Position numbers and translations under genes: made by a program. This document shows, one piece after another, positions 1,588 to 44,930 of a stretch of 45,522 nucleotides of DNA; within the stretch, counting starts at the first letter, position 1, and every line of letters starts with the position of its first letter. Below the pieces are notes generated by a model. It had not been told where the DNA came from. It ran no database searches and saw nothing but the letters and a program-made list of their open reading frames with translations. This stretch comes from Gemmatimonadota bacterium (GTDB taxonomy: Bacteria; Gemmatimonadota; Gemmatimonadetes; Gemmatimonadales; GWC2-71-9), in assembly GCA_003246755.1 (NCBI GenBank), contig QKDC01000161.1, positions 1-45,522 on the forward strand, given 5' to 3'.

Positions 1588-1968
1588 ATGGCGCGTATTG
1601 CTGGCGTCGACCTTCCGCGAGAGAAGCGGGTTGCGGTCGCACTGACATATATCCACGGCATTGGTCGACCCACCAGCGACCGCATCCTCGGCGAGTCCGG
1701 TGTCAGTCCAGCCACCCGGGTGCGTGATCTCTCCGACGCCGAAGTGGCGCGCCTGCGCCAGGTCATCGAGCGTTCCATTCGGGTCGAGGGTGCGCTGCGG
1801 ACTGAAGTTGCCATGAACGTGAAGCGGTTGATGGATATCGGGAGCTACCGGGGCACGCGTCATCGCCGTGGTCTCCCGGTCCGCGGCCAGAGAACTCATA
1901 CCAATGCGCGTACGAAGAAGGGTCCACGGCGCGCCATCGCCGGCAAGAAGAAAGCGACGAAGAAGTAA
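1588..1968 (+). CDS. rpsM: Ribosomal protein S13 (uS13)
   Basis: This 126-residue protein of the small-subunit head contacts tRNA and the 23S rRNA bridge. The start [15 protein letters not shown] is the family signature, followed by [16 protein letters not shown] (helix-hairpin region). The [25 protein letters not shown] block is the rRNA-binding tail, which ends in a lysine-rich extension that reaches into the P site. No Shine-Dalgarno sequence is apparent. The start lies one base after the rpmJ stop, so coupling is likely. Confidence 0.98.
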
Positions 1969-1971
1969 TCC

Positions 1972-2373
1972 ATGACGAGTCCCGTACCAGCACGACCGAC
2001 TGGCGGCAAACGGTCCAAGAAAGTCGTCGAGTCGGAGGGCATCGCCCACATCTCCGCCACCTTCAATAACGTTCTCATCACCATCACCGATCTGCGGGGG
2101 AACACGGTCGTGTGGGGAACGGCGGGCAAGGCCGGATTCAAGGGGTCGAAGAAATCCACTCCCTTCGCGGCAACGGTGGCCGCGGAGAACTGTGCTCGTG
2201 AGGCCTACAACTTGGGCGTCCGGAAGGTGCACGTGTTGGTGCAGGGTCCCGGAAGCGGTCGGGAGTCGGCCATTCAGGCCCTCGCCTCCGGGGGTCTCAA
2301 GGTGGCATCGATCAAAGATGTGACGCCGATTCCCCATAACGGGTGTCGCCCACCCAAGAAGCGCAGGGTCTAG
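1972..2373 (+). CDS. rpsK: Ribosomal protein S11 (uS11)
   Basis: This 133-residue small-subunit platform protein lies near the mRNA exit. Recognisable blocks are [21 protein letters not shown], then [20 protein letters not shown], then [17 protein letters not shown], and the C-terminal [18 protein letters not shown]. The last block is nearly invariant across bacteria and includes the N-G dipeptide known to become isoaspartate in other species. An N-terminal extension of about 15 residues ([14 protein letters not shown]) is basic and is normal for the family. The ATG lies three bases after the S13 stop. Confidence 0.98.
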
Positions 2374-2375
2374 AC

Positions 2376-3011
2376 ATGGCACGATACTCTGGACCCGCCT
2401 GTCGCCTCTGCCGTCGCGAGGGATCGAAGCTCTTCTTGAAGGGGACGCGTTGCCTGACGGAGAAATGCGCCGTCGACCGACGCTCGTATGCTCCTGGCCA
2501 GCATGGCCAGTCGGGTGGGCGAGGTCGCAAGATGTCGGAATACGCGAAGCAGCTTCGCGAGAAGCAGAAGGTCAAGCGGATCTACGGGCTGACCGAAAAG
2601 CAGTTCCGAAACCTCTTCGAGAGCGCATCGCGGGAGCAAGGTGTCAAAGGCACCAACCTGCTCGTCGCTCTTGAATCACGACTCGACAATCTCGTTTACC
2701 GTATGGGGTTCGCCGTCAGTCGCAGCCAAGCCAGGCAACTGGTTGGACATGGTCATATCCAAGTCAACGGCCGACGGGTCGACATCCCCTCCTATCGTGT
2801 CAAGCCGAACGATGAAGTTCGCGTGGCTCCCGGGAGCCGCGAAATCGTGCCGGTCAAGGTCGCTAAGGACAGCGCGGCACGTGGAGTACCCCTGAGTTGG
2901 ATCAGTGTTGACCTTGAAAAGGCGGTTGGTCGCGTGACCGAACGCCCCGGTCGAGACCAGATCCCGGTGGCAGCCCAAGAACAGTTGATTGTCGAGCTCT
3001 ACTCCAAGTGA
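2376..3011 (+). CDS. rpsD: Ribosomal protein S4 (uS4), zinc-binding form
   Basis: This 211-residue protein begins assembly of the 30S body by binding 16S rRNA. I choose the ATG at 2376, two bases after the S11 stop, because it gives the standard [16 protein letters not shown] start; an upstream in-frame codon would run into rpsK. Four cysteines (C9, C12, C26, C31) form the zinc knuckle of the C+ type. An S4 RNA-binding domain follows with [20 protein letters not shown] and [15 protein letters not shown]. In several bacteria S4 represses its own operon. No pseudoknot target can be confirmed by eye here. Placing rpsD between rpsK and rpoA is a common bacterial order. Confidence 0.98.
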
Positions 3012-3021
3012 CGGACGGACG

Positions 3022-4074
3022 ATGACCATCGACCTGACCGGATTGGTACGCCCCCACGTGGTCGAGATGACCAAGCGGGAGGACAACCCGAATCTCGCCG
3101 AGTTCCGGCTGGGGCCACTCGAACGTGGCTTCGGACATACTCTCGGCAACGCTTTGCGGCGCATGTTGCTCTCTTCCATTCGCGGCTCCGCCGTCTGGGC
3201 GTTCCGGATGGACGGGGTGGTGCATGAGCATCAGACGGTTGCAGGCGTACTCGAAGATGTGCACCAGATCATCCAGCGCCTCAAGGCTCTCACGGTCGTG
3301 CTCGACTATGAGGTCGATGATGTCGTGCTCAAGATACGAAAGAGCGCTGCGGGTCCTGTCCTTGCCGGCGACATCGAGCCCAACGCGGCGGTCGCCATCG
3401 TCAATCCCGAGCATCTCCTGTTCACGCTCCAGGATGACCGGGACATCGCGATGGATCTCTACGTGAACAAGGGTCGGGGGTACGTCGAGGCAGAGATGCA
3501 CCCCATCGACCGGTCACTCCCCGTGGACACGGTCCGGATCGACACCATCTACAATCCTGTCGTCCGCGCGAACTTCAGTGTGGCGGAGACTCGCGTAGGA
3601 CAACGGACGGACTACGATCAGTTGGCCGTGATGGTGGAAACTGACGGAACGATGACTCCAGAAGATGCCATCGCCTACGCCGCTGCGTTGGCGCAGGAGC
3701 ATTTCCGTCCCTTCGTCGAGTTCGGGGTCGTACCCCCGGCAAAGCCCGAACCAGACGAACCCGGAGGTATCTCCAGCGGTCTGGGCGATCGCCTGGGCCG
3801 GCTGATCGATGACTTCGGACTTTCGGTGCGATCGCTGAACTCACTCAAGAACTCCAACATCCGCACCCTGCGCGACCTCGTTGAGCTCACGGAGGACGAC
3901 CTGCTCAAGGTCAAGAACGTGGGCGAAAAGGCGCTGTCCGAAATCGGCGACCTGCTGCAGCAAGAAGGCTTGAATTTCGGGATGCTTTTCGAAGAGGTCG
4001 AAGGCGATCTGCGGGTCATGAACCCTGGGACACCGCCCATGGTGACCCCGAGCGGGGCCACGGAGGAGGTCTGA
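3022..4074 (+). CDS. rpoA: RNA polymerase alpha subunit
   Basis: This 350-residue subunit dimerises to start assembly of RNA polymerase and contacts promoter UP elements and activators. The N-terminal domain (about residues 1-240) shows FRLGPLERGFGHTLGNALRRMLLSS, the dimerisation helix, and VVRANFSVAETRVGQRTDYDQL. A linker rich in Pro/Glu/Gly follows. The C-terminal domain (about 265-325) carries LSVRSLNSLKNSNIRTL and VKNVGEKALSEI, the helix-hairpin-helix that touches DNA. A tail of about 20 residues after the CTD is slightly longer than in E. coli (329 residues). The ATG at 3022 is 10 bases after the rpsD stop with GGACGG upstream. Confidence 0.98.
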   Translation: MTIDLTGLVRPHVVEMTKREDNPNLAEFRLGPLERGFGHTLGNALRRMLLSSIRGSAVWAFRMDGVVHEHQTVAGVLEDVHQIIQRLKALTVVLDYEVDDVVLKIRKSAAGPVLAGDIEPNAAVAIVNPEHLLFTLQDDRDIAMDLYVNKGRGYVEAEMHPIDRSLPVDTVRIDTIYNPVVRANFSVAETRVGQRTDYDQLAVMVETDGTMTPEDAIAYAAALAQEHFRPFVEFGVVPPAKPEPDEPGGISSGLGDRLGRLIDDFGLSVRSLNSLKNSNIRTLRDLVELTEDDLLKVKNVGEKALSEIGDLLQQEGLNFGMLFEEVEGDLRVMNPGTPPMVTPSGATEEV

Positions 4075-4075
4075 C

Positions 4076-4432
4076 GTGCGGCATCGTTCCAAAGGTCGTC
4101 AACTCTCGCGGACGTCAAGTCATCGCAAGGCCATGTTGAACAACATGGCAGCGAGTCTGTTTGCCCACGAGGGGATCGTCACGACGACCGCCAAGGCCAA
4201 GGAACTCCGGCCGTTTGCCGAGCGCCTCATTACCCTCGCCCGCCGGGGCGACCTCCACGCCAGGCGCCAGGTCGAACGGCGGATCAAGGATCGCGCGGTC
4301 CAGGCTCGACTCTTTCAGGAGATCGGGCCCCGGTTCGCGGCCCGGCCTGGTGGCTATACCCGAATCCTCAAGCTGGGACACCGAGTCGGCGATGGGGCAG
4401 AAACGGCCCGGATTGAACTACTGCCAGAGTGA
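4076..4432 (+). CDS. rplQ: Ribosomal protein L17 (bL17)
   Basis: This 118-residue large-subunit protein lies near the polypeptide exit tunnel. Its start MRHRSKGRQLSRTSSHRKAM is typical. It continues with LFAHEGIVTTTAKAKELRPFAERLITLAR and ends YTRILKLGHRVGDGAETARIELL. The start is GTG, one base after the rpoA stop. It closes the operon and is followed within 30 bases by a strong hairpin terminator. Confidence 0.98.
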   Translation: MRHRSKGRQLSRTSSHRKAMLNNMAASLFAHEGIVTTTAKAKELRPFAERLITLARRGDLHARRQVERRIKDRAVQARLFQEIGPRFAARPGGYTRILKLGHRVGDGAETARIELLPE

Positions 4433-4460
4433 CGGGACCACTCCCGGTGGCATGGACGTC

Positions 4461-4492
4461 AAAAGGGGACCCGACAGAGGGTCCCCTTTTTT
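4461..4492. terminator. Bidirectional Rho-independent terminator between rplQ and rpmB
   Basis: A perfect 12-base stem (4461-4472 with 4479-4490) has a 6-base loop GACAGA. Its core is GGGGACCC/GGGTCCCC, flanked by A4 on one side and a run of T on the other. Because both flanks have the right tract, it can stop rplQ transcription from the left and rpmB transcription from the right. The two genes converge on it. Confidence 0.95.
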
Positions 4493-4515
4493 CGGTGCAG
4501 TCGCGGTGGGGTGCG

Positions 4516-4707
4516 CTATGGCGCCTTGGTGACCTTGTTGCTACGAATGCAACGCGTGCACACCCGGACACGGCGGGGGGCACCGTCCACCAGGGTCCGA
4601 ACCGACTGGAGGTTGGGGTACCACCGTCGCTTCACTCGGTTGTTGGCGTGACTCACGTGGTTACCCGTCGTGGGTCCTCGCCCGCAAATGGAACAAGTCC
4701 GAGCCAT
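4516..4707 (-). CDS. rpmB: Ribosomal protein L28 (bL28), zinc-binding form
   Basis: This is a 63-residue basic large-subunit protein. The start [20 protein letters not shown] and the block [13 protein letters not shown] are family signatures. C5-x2-C8 and the later C50-x2-C53 form a zinc ribbon, so this is the cysteine-containing type. The ATG at 4707 is preceded on the minus strand by GGAGAA at a proper distance. An in-frame ATG further upstream would add 44 non-conserved residues and is rejected. The gene stands alone with its own promoter, apart from the usual rpmG partner, and it converges on rplQ. Confidence 0.96.
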
Positions 4708-4736
4708 CGTCAGTTCTCCGGTGTAGTCTGTCGGCA

Positions 4737-4753
4737 GCCGGCACTCTGCCGGC
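4737..4753 (-). repeat. Small hairpin at the 5' end of the rpmB transcript
   Basis: GCCGGCA and TGCCGGC (4737-4743 and 4747-4753) are perfect inverted copies around a 3-base loop. On the minus strand the predicted transcription start is near 4756, so the hairpin would begin about three bases into the rpmB mRNA. A hairpin there could protect the mRNA end or be a control site. The function is inferred. Confidence 0.55.
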
Positions 4754-4762
4754 AAGCCTGAA

Positions 4763-4791
4763 AAGATAAGGTATTCCGTACTGTACTTCAA
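4763..4791 (-). promoter_or_regulatory. Promoter for rpmB
   Basis: Read on the minus strand: TTGAAG (4791-4786), a 17-base spacer, then TATCTT (4768-4763). Transcription would start near 4756 and leave a leader of about 50 bases before rpmB. I see no equally good promoter in the other direction for gmd in this 112-base divergent gap. Confidence 0.75.
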
Positions 4792-4819
4792 CCAGAGAGC
4801 GACCGGCGGAGGAGGGTAA

Positions 4820-5785
4820 ATGCCGAAGGCCATGATCACCGGTGTGACCGGTCAAGACGGATCGTATCTGGCCGAGTTCCTGCTCGGGAAGGGGTACGAG
4901 GTCATTGGCGTGGTTCGCCGGACGAGCCACCACAGTTACGAGCGGATCGATCATCTGCTCGATCGGCTCCACATCGTGACCGCCGATCTACTCGACCAGC
5001 ATTCCCTGACGACCGCCGTTCGGGATACGCAACCGGACGAAGTCTACAATCTTGCCGCGCAATCGTACGTCCCGACCTCGTTCGCACAACCGGTGCTCAC
5101 CGGCGAGTTCACCGCCCTCGGCGTCACCAGGATCCTCGAAGCCATCCGCCTGGCATGTCCTACGGCGCGATTCTACCAGGCCAGTTCTTCGGAAATGTTT
5201 GGGAAGGTGAGCGAATCCCCCCAGAATGAGGAGACCGCATTCCATCCACGATCGCCCTACGGGGTGGCGAAGGTCTACGGTCACTGGATCACCGTGAACT
5301 ACCGGGAGGCCTACGGTCTCTACGCCGTGAGCGGCATCCTGTTCAACCATGAGTCTCCTCGGCGAGGTCTCGAGTTCGTGACCCGGAAGGTGAGTCATGC
5401 GGTCGCACGCATCTGTCACGGGACACAGAAGAGGCTCAAACTGGGGAACTTGGAGTCGCGCCGAGACTGGGGCTTCGCCGGCGACTATGTGGACGCGATG
5501 TGGCGGATGCTCCAGCAGCCCGTCCCCCAGGATTACGTCATCGGGTCGGGGTCGACCCATTCGGTCGAAGACCTCGTCCGTATCGCCTTTTCTCACGTTG
5601 GACTCGATTGGCACGACTACGTCGATCTCGATCCCTCCTTACAGCGACCTGCAGAGGTTGACCTCCTTCTGGCCGATCCGCAGCGGGCCGAGCGTGATCT
5701 CGGCTGGAAGGCGACCATGGGGTTTGAAGAGCTCATCCGGATGATGGTTGACGCGGATCTGCAGCGAACGGTTGCCAGTCAATGA
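4820..5785 (+). CDS. gmd: GDP-mannose 4,6-dehydratase
   Basis: This 321-residue short-chain dehydrogenase turns GDP-D-mannose into GDP-4-dehydro-6-deoxy-D-mannose, the branch point to GDP-rhamnose, GDP-fucose and related sugars. The NADP-binding loop is [12 protein letters not shown] (residues 8-19). The catalytic set is in ASSSEMFG (S123/S124, E125) and Y147-x3-K151 (SPYGVAK). The substrate segment [15 protein letters not shown] is diagnostic of Gmd. The strong ribosome binding site GGAGGAGG lies just upstream. The stop overlaps the ATG of the reductase by 4 bases, so the two steps are made together. It is slightly shorter than E. coli Gmd (373) and similar to the Pseudomonas type. Confidence 0.96.
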
Positions 5786-31260: not shown

Positions 31261-31940
31261 GTCTCGGACTCCGCCACACCAACAGGGAAGAGGTCGTGGC
31301 GGGCCTCACCGGTGCCTTGGCGGCGCACCTGATCCTTGTCGCCATCGTTTTTCTGGCCGTCCGGCAGGTCCCACTGGACGGTACCGTCTATCGCGTCAAC
31401 CTGGTAGCGGCCCCGGCACCAACCCAAGCGCGGCGAGTGGCGCCGGAGGCGACGCCGCGACCGGTTGAACGCACCGCACCGATCGACCCCCCTCGGCCGA
31501 AGCCCGACGTGACCCCGCCACCGACCAAGACCGTACCGCAACCCCGAGTCGAGGCACCGGTCGAGACTGCGAATCCCGCCACGCCAATGCCTGATGAAAC
31601 CCCGTCCACGGGCGCCGACGTCGCAAATGTCAGTACACCAGGGGCCGATTTCCCCTTTCCCGAGTACCTCAGGAATATCGTGAATGAGATCTATCGTCGG
31701 TGGCAGCGGCCCGAGGGTGCTCCGAGCCTCCGCACCGAGATTCGGTTCGTGGTCCTGAGGGATGGGCTCGTGAAAGACATCGCGATCGCCACACGCTCAC
31801 GGAGCTTTTCTTTCGATCTCTCCGCGCAGGGTGCGGTGGAGGCGGCAGCCAACGCCAGCGCCTTCGGGCCTCTGCCTGAAGGGTTCATTGGTGATGCTCT
31901 GGCCATCTCCCTTTGGTTCAGGCCGCGGGGTACACCGTGA
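31257..31940 (+). CDS. tolA: TolA/TonB-type energy-transducing protein
   Basis: This 227-residue protein has one membrane helix near the N-terminus (AGLTGALAAHLILVAIVFLAV). A long proline-, threonine- and lysine-rich periplasmic arm follows (residues 60-125). The C-terminal globular domain is VNEIYRRWQRPEGA then RFVVLRDGLVKDIAI, which is the TonB/TolA C-terminal fold. It spans from TolQR to the outer membrane and links proton flow to TolB-Pal. The short arm (about 70 residues rather than more than 200 in E. coli TolA) looks like TonB, and only the operon context favours TolA. Starts at GTG 31257, overlapping tolR. Confidence 0.85.
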   Translation: MSLGLRHTNREEVVAGLTGALAAHLILVAIVFLAVRQVPLDGTVYRVNLVAAPAPTQARRVAPEATPRPVERTAPIDPPRPKPDVTPPPTKTVPQPRVEAPVETANPATPMPDETPSTGADVANVSTPGADFPFPEYLRNIVNEIYRRWQRPEGAPSLRTEIRFVVLRDGLVKDIAIATRSRSFSFDLSAQGAVEAAANASAFGPLPEGFIGDALAISLWFRPRGTP

Positions 31941-33223
31941 GGCGGGGTCTGCTGCTGGCGGTGGTGATGTGGTTCCCGTCGTTCACGAATGCCGCGGCTC
32001 AGGATACGACCCGGGCCGTCCTGCAACTACTGTACGACAACCCGCAAGTGCGCCCGACCCTGGTAGTCGTGCCGGTGGCGGGCCTCGACTCCGTGCGAAC
32101 CATCGTCGAGCGGGATCTCGATCAGAGTGATCGATTCGAGTTGATCCTGCTGCCGATGGTGAGCCAACCGATCGAACCTGGGGCGCTCAATCTGGCGCCC
32201 TACCGGGCCATGAATGCGGAACTCGCCCTCGAGATGGTACCCGCTGGGGGGGCGCTCGTGACCGTGCGACTCTATGATGTGGCCACGGGGTTGATCCGGA
32301 ATGAAGGCCTCATGGCCGTGGATTACACGGGGACCGGCGAAGGGAGGATGACCATCCATCGCCTGTCGGATGAAGTGGTCCGGTGGGCAACGGGGAAGGT
32401 CGGGATTGCAGCCACCAGGATCCTCTATGTGCTGGACAATCGGGTGTGGCTTGTCGATGCGGATGGCTACGGCCCACGCCCGTTGACCCCAGCCGGGCGG
32501 ACGGCGTATTCCCCTGCGTGGAGTCCCGATGGGCGACGGTTTGCGTATACGGAACTCGCGGATGGGAAGGGGTACGTCGTGCTCCAGAGTCTGACCTCGG
32601 GGAATCGGGTCGTGCTGCCAGGAACCGAGCAGACGATGAACATCACACCGTCCTTCTCGCCCGACGGTACCCATATCGCCTTTTCCAGGGTCATGAACGG
32701 TGCCTACGCGCTGCACAAGGCTGACGTCACCAATCTCTGCTGTGCGGAACGTCTCACCGGTGGTCGGTTTGCAGAAAACCTCTCTCCTACGTATTCTCCC
32801 GACGGACGGCGGATCGCGTTCGTCTCGACTCGCGCGGGCAGCCCCCAGATCTATGTCATGTCGTCGGATGGGACCAATCAGGAACTCCTGGTCCCGTTCG
32901 ATTACGGGATCACCGGGGCGTCGTTTGCACCGGAATGGTCGCCGGACGGCCTCAAACTGGTATTTCACCGATCGATGGGGTCCGGTTTCCAGGTCTTGGT
33001 CTTCGACATCACGAGTGACCGTGTCCGCCAGGTGACCTCCGAGGGCCGAAACGAAGATGCTTCCTGGGCCCCCGATGGTCGACACATTATTTTTACGTCC
33101 AGCCGATCGGGTGGTCGGCAACTGCATGTTCTCGATCTCGAAACCAGCCGGGTTCGGAGAATTCCAACTCCCGGAACTGCTCAACTCGCCACGTGGTCAC
33201 CGCGTTTGAGCGGGGCTCCGTAG
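31937..33223 (+). CDS. tolB: Tol-Pal system protein TolB
   Basis: This 428-residue periplasmic protein has the signal MRRGLLLAVVMWFPSFTNAA, followed by AAQ as cut site. The N-terminal domain (about 30-180) is the part that in other species binds TolA. It is followed by a six-bladed propeller whose blades are marked by repeats such as SPAWSPDGRRFAYTE, TPSFSPDGTHIAFSR, SPTYSPDGRRIAFVS, APEWSPDGLKLVFHR and DASWAPDGRHIIFTS. The propeller binds Pal. I choose GTG 31937, which overlaps the tolA stop, rather than an upstream TTG that would spoil the signal peptide. Confidence 0.95.
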   Translation: MRRGLLLAVVMWFPSFTNAAAQDTTRAVLQLLYDNPQVRPTLVVVPVAGLDSVRTIVERDLDQSDRFELILLPMVSQPIEPGALNLAPYRAMNAELALEMVPAGGALVTVRLYDVATGLIRNEGLMAVDYTGTGEGRMTIHRLSDEVVRWATGKVGIAATRILYVLDNRVWLVDADGYGPRPLTPAGRTAYSPAWSPDGRRFAYTELADGKGYVVLQSLTSGNRVVLPGTEQTMNITPSFSPDGTHIAFSRVMNGAYALHKADVTNLCCAERLTGGRFAENLSPTYSPDGRRIAFVSTRAGSPQIYVMSSDGTNQELLVPFDYGITGASFAPEWSPDGLKLVFHRSMGSGFQVLVFDITSDRVRQVTSEGRNEDASWAPDGRHIIFTSSRSGGRQLHVLDLETSRVRRIPTPGTAQLATWSPRLSGAP

Positions 33224-33247
33224 CAGATCCTTCAAGGAGGCTCAACT

Positions 33248-33814
33248 GTGTCCCTGCGCGCTGCGTTGTTCTCACTGGTCTCTGGTGGACTCCTCGTTGC
33301 CGGGTGTAGCAAGAAAGTGGAACCGGTCGTGACGCCTCCGCCGGTGGAGACCACGACTCCGACCCCGCAACCGCCGCCGCCACCGCCACCACCACCGAGT
33401 ACCGAACCAACCTGTGAGCAGGTGATCACACGGATGGTGTCCGAGTTGGCTGCCTTGGTGCATTTCGACACCGACAAGTTCGACATCCGTCCCGGCGATG
33501 CCACCGTGTTGGATGGCAAGGCCAGCATCCTGCAGTCGCATCCGCAGGTCCGGGTCCGCATCACGGGCCATGCTGACGAGCGGTACACCGCCGAGTACAA
33601 CCTGGTGCTCGGGACCAAGCGGGCCGAATCCGCCAAGAGCTATCTGGTCTCCAAGGGTGTGAGTGGTGGTCGGATGGAGACCGCCAGCCTCGGTGAGACG
33701 GCTCCGCTCGACCCGGGGCATACGGAAGCGGCATGGTCCCGCAATCGTCGAGCGGAAGTCTCGGTGATCGCCGGCCGCAGCACGCTGGCCTCCCATCTCG
33801 CCCGGTGTCAGTGA
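33248..33814 (+). CDS. pal: Peptidoglycan-associated lipoprotein Pal
   Basis: This 188-residue outer-membrane lipoprotein has the signal SLRAALFSLVSGGLLVAGC with lipobox V-A-G-C and lipidated Cys20. A disordered linker follows with a run of nine prolines. The OmpA-like domain at about 65-175 begins VHFDTDKFDIRPGD and contains VRITGHADERYTAEYNLVLGTKRAESAKSYL, the strand and helices that grip diaminopimelate in peptidoglycan, and later WSRNRRAEV. The start is GTG 33248 with AAGGAGG seven bases upstream. The end overlaps cpoB by 4 bases. Confidence 0.97.
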   Translation: MSLRAALFSLVSGGLLVAGCSKKVEPVVTPPPVETTTPTPQPPPPPPPPPSTEPTCEQVITRMVSELAALVHFDTDKFDIRPGDATVLDGKASILQSHPQVRVRITGHADERYTAEYNLVLGTKRAESAKSYLVSKGVSGGRMETASLGETAPLDPGHTEAAWSRNRRAEVSVIAGRSTLASHLARCQ

Positions 33815-34596
33815 CCCGAAACGCGGTCAGTGTGATTGCCACGGCGCTCGTGGTGGCGGGGTGTGCCACCAAGGGCGCCGTGCAGCAAGTACAGACCGAG
33901 CTCGTCGTCTTGCGGACCCAGATGGCCAGACAGGATTCCGCCCGGGCCGCCGAACTCGGTCGCATCATCGCGCTGCAGCAGCGGACCCTCGACTCGCTCG
34001 AATCCACCCGGGAGTCCGTCCGCCAAGCGAGGACCGAACTCCGGGGTGACCACCTCGATATCCAAGCGTCGCTCGTCACCATCCAGGAGCTCACCGGTCA
34101 GAGTCAACGCCGGCTCAGCGAACTCCGCCGCCAGATCGACGACCGACTCGAGCGGATGGCCTCGGACACGTTGGTGACGTCCATTCCAGACTCCGGCGTC
34201 TCCGTTCCCACTCCGTTGACCCCGACTCCCGATCAGCTGTTCCAAGCCTCACTCCAGGAACTGCGGAGAGGGAGCCTCGGGACTGCCCGGGCCGGGTTTC
34301 ACGAGTACCTCCGGTCGTACCCCACTCACGGGCAAGTCCCGGATGCCCTCTACTATCTCGGGGAGACATTCTCGGTTGATGCCGCCGATTCTGCCATGGC
34401 ATACTGGCGGGAGGTCGTCGAGCGTTTTCCCAACACGGCCAGGGCTCCTACTGCGCTGTACAAGACGGGCCTGAGTGCGGAACAGCAGGGCGACCGTGCC
34501 GCCGCCCGGGCTGCCTACCAACGGGTCATCCAGCAGTATCCTCGCTCCGACGAAGCGGATCTCGCCCGGAACCGGCTGGCCTCGCTCCGGCCCTGA
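33811..34596 (+). CDS. cpoB: Cell division coordinator CpoB-like (YbgF) lipoprotein
   Basis: This 261-residue protein links Tol-Pal action to peptidoglycan synthesis at division in other bacteria. The start at GTG 33811 overlaps the pal stop by 4 bases and gives VIATALVVAGC, a lipobox, so it may be lipid-anchored, unlike the soluble E. coli form. A coiled-coil region rich in Gln/Arg/Leu (about 30-130, SQRRLSELRRQIDDRLERM) would trimerise. TPR repeats follow: LFQASLQELRRGSLGTARAGFHEYLRSYP, DALYYLGETFSV and AYQRVIQQYPRSDEAD. That order is the CpoB arrangement. Confidence 0.88.
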   Translation: MTRNAVSVIATALVVAGCATKGAVQQVQTELVVLRTQMARQDSARAAELGRIIALQQRTLDSLESTRESVRQARTELRGDHLDIQASLVTIQELTGQSQRRLSELRRQIDDRLERMASDTLVTSIPDSGVSVPTPLTPTPDQLFQASLQELRRGSLGTARAGFHEYLRSYPTHGQVPDALYYLGETFSVDAADSAMAYWREVVERFPNTARAPTALYKTGLSAEQQGDRAAARAAYQRVIQQYPRSDEADLARNRLASLRP

Positions 34597-34614: not shown

Positions 34615-37600
34615 ATGAAGACATCTACCGGTGAAATGCCATTCCTCGATCATCTCGAGGAATTGCGGGTACGCATTCTCCGCTCCCTTATTGCCCTGGT
34701 GGTCGGGGTGGGTCTCGGATTCTGGCTGGTGCAGCGTTTTCGCCTCGTCGCACTCCTCAAGACACCCATTGCTTCGTACCTCCCTGACGGGAAGTTGGTC
34801 GTGCTCAGCCCGACCGACCCCGTGATGATCGTGCTGAAACTCTCGTTCATCGTCGGACTCGTGCTGGTCGCGCCGATTCTGATATGGCAGGTCTGGGCTT
34901 TCCTGACGCCCGCACTCTACGAGAAGGAAAAGAAGACCCTGGTGCCGGCGCTTGGGGTGGGCCTGGTGCTGTTTCTTTTGGGGGCTGCCGGCGCATGGCT
35001 CTTCATCGTGCCCAAAGCGCTCGCCGTCCTGCTCAGCTTCCAGGCTGAGTCGTTCGCCATGATGATCACGTACGAGAAGTACTTCGGGTTCGTGCTGCAG
35101 ATCGTGCTCGCCATGGGGATTTCGGCGGAGCTTCCACTCCTCCTCATCATTCTCACCGCGCTCGGGGTGGTTACCCCCGAGAAACTTGGGCGGTTCCGGC
35201 GGGTCGCAGTGGTGCTCTCCTGTGTCGCGGGCGCCTTCTTGTCCCCAGGGGCAGACATCTTCTCGATGATCTTCATGACCGTGCCCCTGTTGCTACTCTA
35301 CGAAGTCGGCGTGGCGGGATCGATTGTGGTGCATCGTCGTCGGCTCCGGCGGGCCGCGGCCACCGGGTTGATGGTGCTCCTGGCCGGCGGCCTGTTTGCT
35401 GGCGAAGCGGAGGCGCAAGCGACCCAGCCCGGCCAGCTTCCGCCGCAACGCCAGGACACTACTCGTGCCCCGAGACAACTGGACGTGGCGAGTGCAAGGC
35501 GGATGGGTCTCCCGACGGCACCCACGAAGACCTTCCCATCGCCCGACTCGGTGATGGCCGCGCTCTTCGACCGGAAAGGCTTCACGCGAACGCGGTACAT
35601 GGCCGATACCGCGACGATATCCGGGGTCACGCGCCGTCTTCGTCTCACGGGGGATGCCGTGACCGAACGAGGGACCACGATCCTGGAAGCGGAATCGATC
35701 AGTTACTTGGAGGCGAGTTGTGATCTGCTTGCCGATGGGGACCCTCGACTCTTCGATCAGGGCATGATCCTCGTCGGAGGGGGGATCCGATATGACACCT
35801 GTGTCGAGCGCGGCATCGTGGGGGATGCGCTGACCTCCTTTTCCGAGGTGGGCTCCGATTGGTTTCTGCGGGGCAATCTGGGGGTCGACTCCTCCTCCAA
35901 CCGGATCTTTGCCGCGTCGAGTGAGATCACGAGTTGTGACCTTCCCGTCGCCCATTACCATTTTCAGGCCAAGGAGATCAAGTGGGTCTCCTCATCGCTG
36001 ATCGTGGCCCGCCCGGCGGTGCTCTACATCCGCGATGTCCCGGTCGCGTGGTTGCCTTTCATCTTCCAGGAGACCAAACCCGGTCGCCGCTCGGGGATCC
36101 TCGTGCCCCAGTTTGGATTCAATGACATCGTCCGACCCAACCAGGGGTACAGTCGGCAAATCACCGACTTCGGGTATTACTTCGCCATCAGTGATTATCT
36201 CGATGCCGCGGTGCGTGCCGACTGGTATGCCGGTCGCTACTTCCGATGGTCGGCGCGATCGCAATACCGACTGCGCGAGCGGTTCCTCGAGGGGTCGGCG
36301 GAAGTCAGTCGCCAACATGAATCGGGCGGGGCCGTGTCGACCAGTGTCCGCTGGGGTCACCGGCAGAGTTTCGGGTTGACCACGACGCTCTCGATGAACG
36401 TGAATTTCAGCACCAACACCAGTGTGGTCGCGAACAACGCCGTCGATCCCTTCCTGAGTACCCAACAGTTGGCCAGTGACATGAACCTCACCAAGCGCTT
36501 TCGGTGGGGAACCCTCTCGTTGGGTGGTCGGCGGCGGCAGACCCTGGGTGACGACCAGGTCTCACAGCAGTTTCCTGCGTTGGCTCTCACGCCGAAACCC
36601 CTGGCGATCTCCCAGTGGGCCACGTGGTCGCCGACGGTCCGGTTCTCAAACGATGTCGCGAGTCAGGCCAAGAAGTTCCTCGCGATCCCGCGGCCGACGG
36701 GGGGGATTGATTCGGTCGAAGTCACGCCCCGAACCCGGAACTCGGTTTTCAATCTCGACACCCCGCTGCGGTTCGGCAGCTTCAACTGGCGCAACACGGT
36801 TTCGATTCGGGATGCCGAGGCAACGTCTTCCGCCACCATTACCACCAAGGTGCCCAACGAGGCGACCCTGGATCCCACGGATTCGATCGCGGTAACCCGC
36901 CTGGTCGCGGGCACCTTTTCGACGACGCTCAACTGGGACACCGGGATCAACCTCCCGCTCTTCGCCAGGAGCACCTGGAAGATCACGCCCACCATCGGCA
37001 TTACCAACACGACATCGGGTGAGTTCGCGATCCGTAACGAAAGGACCGGGGGGGCCTGGGTCACCCAAGGGAAACGATTCACCTTTGGCCTCTCTGCGGC
37101 GCCCTCGCTCTTCGCCTTTCTGCCGGGGATCGGGCCCATCGAGCGTATCCGGCACACGGTTTCGCCCCTGATCATCTGGGAGTATGCGCCGGCTGCCACG
37201 GTCCCGGAGGAATACGCCAATGCGTTGGCCGCGAACACCGGGACCGTGGCACAACTGGAAAGTCCCGCACGGCAGCGGATCAGCATCTCGCTGTCGCAGA
37301 ACTTCGAGGCCAAAGAGAAGCGGGCCCCGGGGGATACATCCAGCACCACCCAGCAGCGGAAGTACCGACTCCTGGGCATCAATACGAGCGCCTTGTCCTA
37401 TGATTTCGAGCAGGCCAAGGAAGAGGGGCGGACGGGCTGGCAGGATCCGACAATCACCAACACCATCCAGAGTGATCTCCTCCCAGGGTTCAATCTCTCG
37501 GTGAGCCACAGCCTCTGGGATGGGGTCGTGGGCACCGACGAGGCGAAGTTCGATCCCTTCCTGCAATCGGTCAACACGAGTTTCTCGGTTTCGGGTTCGA

Positions 37601-38103
37601 CTCTCCGATCCATCGGACGTCTCTTCGGTCTGTCCAGTGCCCCCGAACCACCGGCGCGGGGCCGGGCGACGCAGGACTCCCGGGGGGCACCGAGCTCCTA
37701 CATCAACGATCCACGAAACCAGATGCAGCAGCGAACGCTGATGGCGACGAATCAACTCACTGGTGCGCGACGACCGTTCAACATGAACATCAATTTTTCC
37801 ATGAACCGGCTGCGTCCGTTGGCGGGATCGGAAGATGGGCCCGTGACCAAGAGCAACATCGGGTTCAACACGAGCTTCTCGCCAACGGCTTTTTGGGGTG
37901 TGTCGTGGACCACGCAATTCAATGTCACCGAGAAGGCGTTCGAGGCACACATCATCCGACTCGAGCGTGATCTTCACGATTGGCGGGCTGGATTCAATTT
38001 CGTCAAGAATCCCAATGGGAACTTTGCGTTCTACTTTTCGGTCCATCTGGTAGATCTCCCAGATCTCAAAGTGGACTACAACCAGACATCGATCAGCCGA
38101 TAA
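34615..38103 (+). CDS. tatC-lptD: TatC-LptD fusion: Tat translocase subunit joined to LPS-assembly outer-membrane protein
   Basis: One open frame of 1162 codons. Residues 1-240 are a complete TatC: FLDHLEELRVRI at the N-terminus, six membrane spans, LTPALYEKEKK with Glu103, and the last span near 220-236. TatC binds twin-arginine signals. Residues 241-267 (RRRLRRAAATGLMVLLAGG, then LFAGEAEA) look like a signal peptide: positive start, hydrophobic core, and A-E-A before Q268. Residues 268-1162 are LptD: an OstA-like domain (about 330-470), the SSLIVARPAVLYIRDVPVAW and FQETKPGRRSGILVP blocks that mark LptD, then a long beta-barrel rich in alternating strands. There is no stop or frameshift between. 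An internal GTG at 35326 (with GGCGGGA upstream) could give a separate LptD. Usual lengths are about 250 for TatC and 780-900 for LptD, so both are whole. Confidence 0.92.
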   Translation: MKTSTGEMPFLDHLEELRVRILRSLIALVVGVGLGFWLVQRFRLVALLKTPIASYLPDGKLVVLSPTDPVMIVLKLSFIVGLVLVAPILIWQVWAFLTPALYEKEKKTLVPALGVGLVLFLLGAAGAWLFIVPKALAVLLSFQAESFAMMITYEKYFGFVLQIVLAMGISAELPLLLIILTALGVVTPEKLGRFRRVAVVLSCVAGAFLSPGADIFSMIFMTVPLLLLYEVGVAGSIVVHRRRLRRAAATGLMVLLAGGLFAGEAEAQATQPGQLPPQRQDTTRAPRQLDVASARRMGLPTAPTKTFPSPDSVMAALFDRKGFTRTRYMADTATISGVTRRLRLTGDAVTERGTTILEAESISYLEASCDLLADGDPRLFDQGMILVGGGIRYDTCVERGIVGDALTSFSEVGSDWFLRGNLGVDSSSNRIFAASSEITSCDLPVAHYHFQAKEIKWVSSSLIVARPAVLYIRDVPVAWLPFIFQETKPGRRSGILVPQFGFNDIVRPNQGYSRQITDFGYYFAISDYLDAAVRADWYAGRYFRWSARSQYRLRERFLEGSAEVSRQHESGGAVSTSVRWGHRQSFGLTTTLSMNVNFSTNTSVVANNAVDPFLSTQQLASDMNLTKRFRWGTLSLGGRRRQTLGDDQVSQQFPALALTPKPLAISQWATWSPTVRFSNDVASQAKKFLAIPRPTGGIDSVEVTPRTRNSVFNLDTPLRFGSFNWRNTVSIRDAEATSSATITTKVPNEATLDPTDSIAVTRLVAGTFSTTLNWDTGINLPLFARSTWKITPTIGITNTTSGEFAIRNERTGGAWVTQGKRFTFGLSAAPSLFAFLPGIGPIERIRHTVSPLIIWEYAPAATVPEEYANALAANTGTVAQLESPARQRISISLSQNFEAKEKRAPGDTSSTTQQRKYRLLGINTSALSYDFEQAKEEGRTGWQDPTITNTIQSDLLPGFNLSVSHSLWDGVVGTDEAKFDPFLQSVNTSFSVSGSTLRSIGRLFGLSSAPEPPARGRATQDSRGAPSSYINDPRNQMQQRTLMATNQLTGARRPFNMNINFSMNRLRPLAGSEDGPVTKSNIGFNTSFSPTAFWGVSWTTQFNVTEKAFEAHIIRLERDLHDWRAGFNFVKNPNGNFAFYFSVHLVDLPDLKVDYNQTSISR

Positions 38104-42776: not shown

Positions 42777-43028
42777 ATGTTTGGGAATCTCGGTTTCGGC
42801 GAAATCCTCGTCATCATGCTGGTTGTGCTCGTCGTGTTCGGGGCACGACGTCTTCCGGAAATCGGTGCCTCGATGGGGAAGGGGATCCGCGAGTTCAAGC
42901 GCAGCATCACCGAAGTGACCGACTCGGTCTCGGAAGTACCACCTGAGAATCGATCCCCAGGACGGCAACTCGACGGAACGCCGGAGACCACTTCAACCAC
43001 GGGCGAGCCCAAGCGGCTCTCACAGTAG
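42777..43028 (+). CDS. tatA: Sec-independent translocase subunit TatA
   Basis: This 83-residue protein begins FGNLGFGEILVIMLVVLVVFG, the short N-terminal membrane helix. The hinge is ARRLPEIGASMGKGIREFKRSITE, the amphipathic helix whose F-G-x-x-x-L/P-E-I and G-K-x-x-x-x-F-K patterns are diagnostic of TatA. A short disordered polar tail follows. TatA forms the pore through which folded proteins pass after TatC picks them. GGAG lies eight bases upstream of ATG 42777. No TatB is in the window, so a two-part TatA-TatC system is possible. A terminator follows within 30 bases. Confidence 0.95.
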   Translation: MFGNLGFGEILVIMLVVLVVFGARRLPEIGASMGKGIREFKRSITEVTDSVSEVPPENRSPGRQLDGTPETTSTTGEPKRLSQ

Positions 43029-43109: not shown

Positions 43110-44930
43110 CTACGGGAGCGTGGGATCGCTCGCGGCAATCTGGGCCGCGGTGCGGTAGATCAGATCCCGGTTGTCAACGATCCGGGCCGATTTGCGCAAT
43201 TCGGCGAAGTATTGCTGGAGCAATGCCTGGCGAGCGCTGCCGATCGCCTGGTCTCGGAGGGTCGCAAGCTGGGTGGTGAACACCGAACTGTCCGCCGGAA
43301 TACGATTCAGTAACTCGAGTACCCAAAAACCGTCCCCCCACTCGATCGGGCCTGCCCGTTCACCTGACGAGAGTGCCATCGCCGCACCCAGGGCCATCCC
43401 ACCGAACTCGGGTGAGGTCACCGGCGCGAAAGGCCCGATCACTCGGTATTCAAGGCCCAGAGGTTCAGCCGCGGTCGCGAGGGGTTTTCCGTCCTCGGCC
43501 TGGGTGACCATTTCCTGGGCGAGAATCCGGGCCTCGACCTTTTGCTTTTCTGCGCGGAGGCGGGCCTCGATCTGCTGGCGTGCCTGGTCGAGGGATGGAA
43601 TGCCTGCCTCACGGATGCTATCGACCCGAAAGACGTGGAAGGTCTCTCGCGTCTCGATGACCGGGCTGTGCTCTCCGACTTCAGCCTGCGTCGACCACAC
43701 CGCGGCATCGGGCAGGACGGCCGGCGGCCCGTTCTCCACCACCGGACCACTCTGGGCGATGGACAGACCGAGCGCGCTTGCCGCCGTGTCCAGGGCTGCG
43801 GGATCCAGTCGATCGGCCGCGAGCGCCTCGAGGCTGTCTGCCCGGGCATCGACTGCGCTCCTGTGATCCCCGACCAGCTCGATGGGGATCAGAATGTGGG
43901 CACCCGTGACCTGGTCTCCTGAGCGCTGGGAGATCTGGATGAGGTGATAACCGAATTGACTCAGGACCGGCTCGGAGAGGGTGCCGATCGGGAGCGAGAA
44001 GGCAGCGGAATCGAAGGCCGGGTCCATTCGTCCCCGAGTCCACTCACCCAGGTTTCCGCCATTGAAACCCGAAACCGTGTCTGCGGATTCCCGCAACGCG
44101 ACTTCCGCGAACGGGACACCGCCCTCGATCTCACTCCGGAGGGTGAGGGCGCGACGGTAGGCCGCGGCCGTATCGGACGCGTCGGGCCGTCGGTCGACCG
44201 TCACGAAACTCAGCCATGCCGTCCTCTCACGCCGCAGTTCCTCTCGCCGCGTTCGATAGAAGGATTCGATCTCCGAGGCCGTCACGGAAACCGCCTCATC
44301 GGTGAGGACCGAGAAGGGAACTTTGATGGCCCCAACGGTCAGCAACTCATTCTGGTCACGAAAGCGCTGCCAAAGTTCCGGGTCGGAGACATACACTGGT
44401 GCTGCGAGGTGCCGGGCAAGCTTCGATTGCAGAATCTGGTTCCGGTAATCCTGCTCGAGGAGGGGGATGTAGCCCTGACCGGTCGCAGATCTCAGCCACA
44501 GTTCGTACTTGGCCTGGTCGAACTGACCATCCGTTTGGAAATCGGGCGTCGTCCGGAACTCTTGGGGCGGGGACACCCTGATAACCTCGGCTATCTCCGC
44601 CGCAGACACGGAGATACCCCATTTCTTGTATTCCTGGTCCAGAATAGTCTCCTGGATGAACTGCTCCCAGACTTGGTCCCGAATTTGCGCAAGTTCAGCT
44701 AAACCAAGGGGTTCAGCGGACTGTTGCTGACGCTGCTCGGTGAAGCGGGAAACCGCTTCCTGAAAGAGCCTGGACTCGATGCTGTGCCCGTTGACCTTGC
44801 CCACGCTGGTCGTGGTCAGGAGGCCTGACCCCCCGGTGAGGCCGCTGAGGTCGAAGACGAGCCATGCAAAAAACGAGATGGCGACGATCGTGATGATCGG
44901 TTTGGCGCTGTTTCGGAATGCCTGCATCAT
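43110..44930 (-). CDS. ppiD: Periplasmic peptidyl-prolyl isomerase/chaperone PpiD-like
   Basis: This 606-residue protein is held in the inner membrane by an N-terminal helix (KPIITIVAISFFAWLVFDLSG, about 9-29). The SurA/PpiD N-terminal chaperone part follows (GKVNGHSIESRLFQEAVSRF onward) and reaches about 240. A parvulin-type isomerase domain lies at about 255-345, with GGVPFAEVALRESAD, GGNLGEWTRGRMDPAFDSAAFSLPIGTLS and FGYHLIQI. A second, degenerate domain seems to lie near 345-470. The C-terminal part matches the PpiD tail. It helps newly exported proteins at the Sec exit and is near secA in this genome. The ATG at 44930 has a second ATG directly after. Confidence 0.9.
   Translation of the reverse strand: MMQAFRNSAKPIITIVAISFFAWLVFDLSGLTGGSGLLTTTSVGKVNGHSIESRLFQEAVSRFTEQRQQQSAEPLGLAELAQIRDQVWEQFIQETILDQEYKKWGISVSAAEIAEVIRVSPPQEFRTTPDFQTDGQFDQAKYELWLRSATGQGYIPLLEQDYRNQILQSKLARHLAAPVYVSDPELWQRFRDQNELLTVGAIKVPFSVLTDEAVSVTASEIESFYRTRREELRRERTAWLSFVTVDRRPDASDTAAAYRRALTLRSEIEGGVPFAEVALRESADTVSGFNGGNLGEWTRGRMDPAFDSAAFSLPIGTLSEPVLSQFGYHLIQISQRSGDQVTGAHILIPIELVGDHRSAVDARADSLEALAADRLDPAALDTAASALGLSIAQSGPVVENGPPAVLPDAAVWSTQAEVGEHSPVIETRETFHVFRVDSIREAGIPSLDQARQQIEARLRAEKQKVEARILAQEMVTQAEDGKPLATAAEPLGLEYRVIGPFAPVTSPEFGGMALGAAMALSSGERAGPIEWGDGFWVLELLNRIPADSSVFTTQLATLRDQAIGSARQALLQQYFAELRKSARIVDNRDLIYRTAAQIAASDPTLP

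Follow-up and report, generated by a model that had tools for sequence, protein, structure and literature searches.

A fused tatC–lptD gene of Gemmatimonadota that probably encodes a polyprotein with an internal signal peptide

The tatC–lptD gene and its distribution

The window considered here is the whole 45,522-nucleotide stretch of DNA that was analysed, from a Gemmatimonadota bacterium. On its forward strand, one open frame runs from ATG 34615 to a stop ending at 38103. The 1162 codons cover both TatC and LptD with no stop between them, and Pfam domains of both families match within the same frame (TatC at residues 12–224, 5e-57; LptD_2 at residues 463–932, 1e-39). The genome contains no other TatC or LptD that could be found. 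It has one signal peptidase I and one TatA, the latter in the same window as tatC–lptD.

The TatC part (34615..35331, + strand; residues 1–239) extends to the end of the sixth membrane span. The family match is full length over the six spans (PF00902 positions 1–208 of 208), the NCBIfam model TIGR00945 scores above its cut-off, and the predicted structure matches the TatC structures 4b4a, 4hts, and 9dzz, with a fold match to 4b4a. The predicted mature LptD (35416..38100, +; residues 268–1162) starts with some 20 residues of disordered linker and has the periplasmic N-terminal domain and large C-terminal barrel of an LptD, with PF19838 (LptD_2) above its cut-off. Its identity was checked independently with a profile built from 41 relatives, which matches the LptD structure 7omm (2.8e-8) and also 8h1r. 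The best matches of its predicted model are LptDE structures (E 9e-25), and the top 36 Foldseek matches are all LptD; with a mean pLDDT of 77.5, the model was used solely to confirm the fold. The mature part is thus predicted to be a complete outer-membrane LptD.

Directly upstream of tatC–lptD (31913–34596, +) are tolB, an OmpA/Pal-like gene, and a cpoB/ybgF-like gene. The genome's TatA gene is found 4.7 kb downstream of tatC–lptD (42777–43028, +). A large open frame on the reverse strand (43110–44930) resembles, by eye, a membrane-anchored peptidyl-prolyl isomerase of the SurA/PpiD kind and may encode a folding helper for outer-membrane proteins, LptD for example.

The fusion is the rule in the window's family. 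TatC was found in 54 of 61 family genomes, exactly once in each, and 49 of these 54 carry the fusion, with a separate tatC in the other five. In 43 of the 54, TatC lies inside an open frame of 1168–1331 amino acids, and in six more the frame continues from TatC into the joint and ends at or near a contig end. Among named loci in the genome collection, 67 of 80 are fused. In a 298-genome sample of the phylum, the TatC open frames from outside the family among the matches listed are about 250–460 amino acids long, far below the fused lengths; more fused genomes may exist beyond the family. Nearly all of the genomes are draft metagenome assemblies, which is the one reason to suspect an artefact of sequencing, assembly, or annotation. 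Against this, dozens of genera from independent projects share the same in-frame junction, free of stops and with codons evolving as in a protein (pN/pS 0.44 at the joint). The fused loci also include record CP070716.1, titled as a chromosome. The breadth of occurrence refutes an artefact, and we give that explanation practically no weight.

The joint between TatC and LptD

The joint resembles a signal peptide in each of its parts: a basic n-region, an uncharged hydrophobic core, a small or aliphatic residue at −3, and a small residue at −1. The basic stretch RRRLRR (35335..35352, +; residues 241–246) belongs to the TatC tail and would double as the n-region. The hydrophobic core, or h-region, follows at approximately residues 247–263 (35353..35403, +), with a best 10-residue mean hydropathy of 2.5. 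The c-region and predicted signal peptidase I site, E-A-E-A/Q, occupy 35404..35418 (+), with A265-E266-A267 at 35407–35415 and Gln268 at 35416–35418, which places the predicted cut between Ala267 and Gln268. The joint reads YEVGVAGSIVVHRRRLRRAAATGLMVLLAGGLFAGEAEA up to the cut and QATQPG after it.

The sequence-only reading had proposed a signal peptide with a cut site here, and the proposal has held up. A signal-peptide profile trained solely on 21 signal peptides of unfused LptD proteins from other families scored Gln268 best of all positions in the window's frame (20.7, with 6.8 the next best outside the joint); true signal peptides that were held out score between 1.9 and 28.1, a range that includes 20.7. 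The same profile ranks the joint first in 43 of 49 whole fused frames, the window's included. That reading had also named in advance what would count against it, a failure of the A-E-A site to be conserved in related fusions. The site is in fact conserved in all 74 distinct fused joints, each of which has a basic tail, a hydrophobic core, and the pattern small/aliphatic-X-small followed by Gln.

The residues at the predicted site are strongly constrained. At −1 the 74 joints have Ala (67), Gly (4), Thr (2), or Ser (1). At −3, Leu (37), Ala (24), and Val (8) account for 69 joints, with other small residues in the remaining five; the frequent Leu is acceptable, yet the classical residue is Ala, which is a point against a cut polyprotein. 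The site search over the 74 joints demanded Gln at +1, and every joint still passed; in an earlier pass, where Gln was preferred without being required, 48 of 49 joints had it. In a first alignment of 16 fused proteins, no position between Glu230 and Asp290 except Gln268 was invariant throughout. The basic stretch has 3–10 Lys or Arg residues in every one of the 74 joints, and charged residues make up 13 of 1104 positions in the core versus 350 of 1480 in the 20-residue linker that follows.

Two other kinds of export signal were considered and rejected. A Tat-type signal at RRRLRR was set aside by inspection, as no hydrophobic pair stands in the expected register after the twin arginines; LptD barrels are exported unfolded, and this was also counted against a Tat-type signal. 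A lipoprotein signal was rejected since no Cys follows the core.

Release of LptD

The fused frame, its conservation, the likeness of the joint to the signal peptides of unfused LptD proteins, and the cut-site pattern are all direct observations. Judged from these sequences, it is likely that the tatC–lptD product is a polyprotein with an internal signal peptide that is cut by signal peptidase I. The C terminus of TatC is cytoplasmic and basic, which suits the N-terminal side of a signal peptide. The course of Sec insertion, cutting, and release, as well as the fate of the TatC extension, we infer to be as follows. The six spans of TatC would insert and leave the basic tail in the cytoplasm, where it would serve also as the n-region of the LptD signal peptide. 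The core would then enter SecYEG behind span 6 as a seventh segment, carrying LptD into the periplasm. Signal peptidase I would cut after A265-E266-A267 and free an LptD with N-terminal Gln268 for the BAM machinery. The sequence-only reading expected this cut to leave TatC whole, which needs amending: a cut at A267/Q268 would leave the signal peptide on TatC as a C-terminal extension, unless another protease trims the core. The predicted mature LptD would have QATQPGQLPPQR as its semi-tryptic N-terminal peptide (often as pyro-Glu), and the joint-spanning peptide of an uncut chain would be AAATGLMVLLAGGLFAGEAEAQATQPGQLPPQR.

If the chain stayed uncut, the core would lastingly form a seventh span and keep LptD attached to TatC in the inner membrane. 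The hydrophobicity of the core is sufficient for a span, and an AlphaFold model of TatC plus the joint (residues 1–328) draws span 6 and the core as a single helix (215–260) with no hairpin, confident up to residue 260. The model leaves residues 261–290 poorly defined, and as a prediction it is uninformative on the choice between a span and a signal peptide. However, a permanent span has no use for the conserved pattern at −3, −1, and +1, the prediction for the mature part is a complete outer-membrane LptD, and in unfused relatives this site closes an ordinary signal peptide. A permanently tethered LptD therefore seems very improbable.

It is also conceivable that LptD is made from a start of its own within the joint. 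Two adjacent GTG codons (35326..35331, +; Val238–Val239, the second at 35329) are in frame with ATG 34615, and a weak Shine–Dalgarno-like match, GGCGGGA (35313..35319, +), lies six bases upstream of the first. The sequence-only reading had the coordinates of the joint, the in-frame position of GTG 35326 at codon 238, and the GGCGGGA spacing all correct, and had offered this GTG as a separate start for LptD. Some candidate start is present in 48 of the 74 joints, the window's included, and 16S rRNA pairing upstream of the candidates is slightly better than background (mean −4.55 versus −3.63 in a matched null with a 1% quantile of −4.67), although their ribosome-binding energies are weaker than those at unfused lptD starts. 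For GGCGGGA itself the duplex energy is −5.3 kcal/mol, which places it near the 25th percentile (−5.1) for arbitrary internal start codons; the mean at unfused lptD starts is −6.1.

A separate start for LptD predicts that a start codon leaving a basic n-region should persist, and the counts show no such maintenance. Usable starts were defined as ATG, GTG, or TTG codons that retain a charged n-region, and the null expectation came from resampling each gene's own synonymous codons. The second product has no usable start in 26 of the 74 joints, equal to the chance expectation (26.1 ± 3.4), and the total number of start codons, 63, is likewise close to the expected 67.6 ± 5.3. One joint (locus L005) has no ATG, GTG, or TTG at all between the end of TatC and the cut site. 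The share of GTG among Val codons is the same at the joint (31 of 62) as elsewhere (1130 of 2144). Candidates appear and vanish among close relatives: they are present in one member and absent in the other of the pairs L009/L076, L069/L118, L074/L125, and L041/L164, and the window's candidate is missing from its nearest relatives on the tree, L010 and L079. No reduction of synonymous differences was found at the joint, where pS is 0.386, between TatC (0.338) and LptD (0.425). Across start counts, Shine–Dalgarno energies, synonymous rates, and conservation in close pairs, no selection for an internal start was detectable. In addition, where lptD has become a separate gene again, the intact copies all have ATG. 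A separate start at GTG 35326 thus finds no support as a general mechanism, and synthesis of LptD also or mainly from GTG 35326 or 35329, with full-length read-through only minor, is unlikely. Because the ribosome-binding energies of the candidates are slightly better than the matched background, a minor internal start is possible in some species, judging by sequence, and the window's may be one of them.

Gain and loss of the fusion, and known precedents

In related families, tatC and lptD are mostly separate and usually overlapping genes. On a tree of 77 genomes, for which the root and the direction of change are inferred, seven changes between fused and separate states are needed. Read most simply, tatC and lptD would have fused once at the base of the family and come apart again five times, with a further, independent fusion in another family. 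This gives at least two fusion origins on the tree, probably three in all, and about five cases where separate genes evolved again; one genome (G080) was scored as separate solely through a frame change near a G-rich run that is possibly an error.

The second fused group consists of three genomes (G054, G205, and G324) whose sister species have the usual layout, in which TatC has its tail and the two genes meet at GTGA or TGATG. In the fused members, the old tail of TatC, the lptD start, and its n-region have all been lost, so that the RRR stretch of TatC directly abuts the LptD core. Gemmatimonadaceae MGR_bin21 probably holds a third fusion, built differently (L158; JACCRL010000193.1, match 1677–5420). 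There, a long charged TatC tail has been kept and is followed by the LptD signal peptide. A GTG is still available ahead of that signal peptide.

Each of the re-split lptD genes (in G002, G020, G074, and G004) begins with ATG and encodes a basic residue and a signal peptide whose end is A-x-A-Q or similar. As far as sequence can tell, this suggests that the joint still encodes a workable signal peptide. In G004, lptD stands alone with its ATG, and tatC is on a different contig (loci L033 = G004:C20 and L034 = G004:C47); the tatC tail there is longer than in other members of the family, and this tatC is possibly a replacement. At L081 (G080:C35), and also at L152, the frame shared by TatC and LptD is broken after a G-rich run immediately downstream of the TatC part; either the sequence contains an error there or a fused gene has recently shifted frame.

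It is likely that LptD, an outer-membrane protein, is produced throughout the family solely as the C-terminal half of a polyprotein that starts with TatC. Export would then be cotranslational behind a membrane protein, with one LptD made per TatC, and TatC would gain a seventh segment derived from a signal peptide, in an arrangement with two to three origins and repeated reversals. If so, the gains and losses form a natural series from gene overlap to polyprotein and back, and their repeated occurrence beside overlapping gene pairs makes the origin of a polyprotein testable. If the cut is real, dozens of genera deliver an outer-membrane protein at the tail end of an inner-membrane one, and two unrelated machines are forced into equal synthesis. 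To our knowledge, bacterial polyproteins with products for two different membranes are rare. There is also a consequence for annotation, as automated pipelines may annotate one unusual protein and list LptD or TatC as absent.

A literature search for a described TatC–LptD fusion or for FbcH returned nothing relevant. Among Gemmatimonadota, the unfused tatC–lptD pairs of two other families (f2 and f3) have the same gene order and an LptD signal peptide of the same kind. They differ in that the two genes are in another frame or separated by a stop, most often with a GTGA overlap, and in that LptD has its own start and n-region and TatC its own, usually longer, tail. Long additional stretches may also occur in other TatC proteins. 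The Myxococcus xanthus TatC chain (PDB 9e03 chain A, 377 residues), which aligns with the model of the window's TatC plus joint over 374 columns, is possibly also longer than the six-span core; neither an LptD nor a cut site is claimed for it.

By mode of action, the closest known precedent would be FbcH of Bradyrhizobium japonicum, reportedly a polyprotein of cytochrome b and cytochrome c1 with an internal signal peptide, at which signal peptidase cuts once the chain has been inserted. Both chains begin with a multi-span inner-membrane protein whose end is cytoplasmic and continue with an internal signal peptide, predicted in the case of TatC–LptD, that leads into an exported protein. The halves of FbcH belong to one complex in one membrane, whereas those of TatC–LptD have unrelated roles in two membranes. 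Also in contrast to FbcH, the second product of TatC–LptD is an outer-membrane barrel and the fusion has been gained and lost repeatedly; the likeness is one of mode of action, and no homology is claimed.
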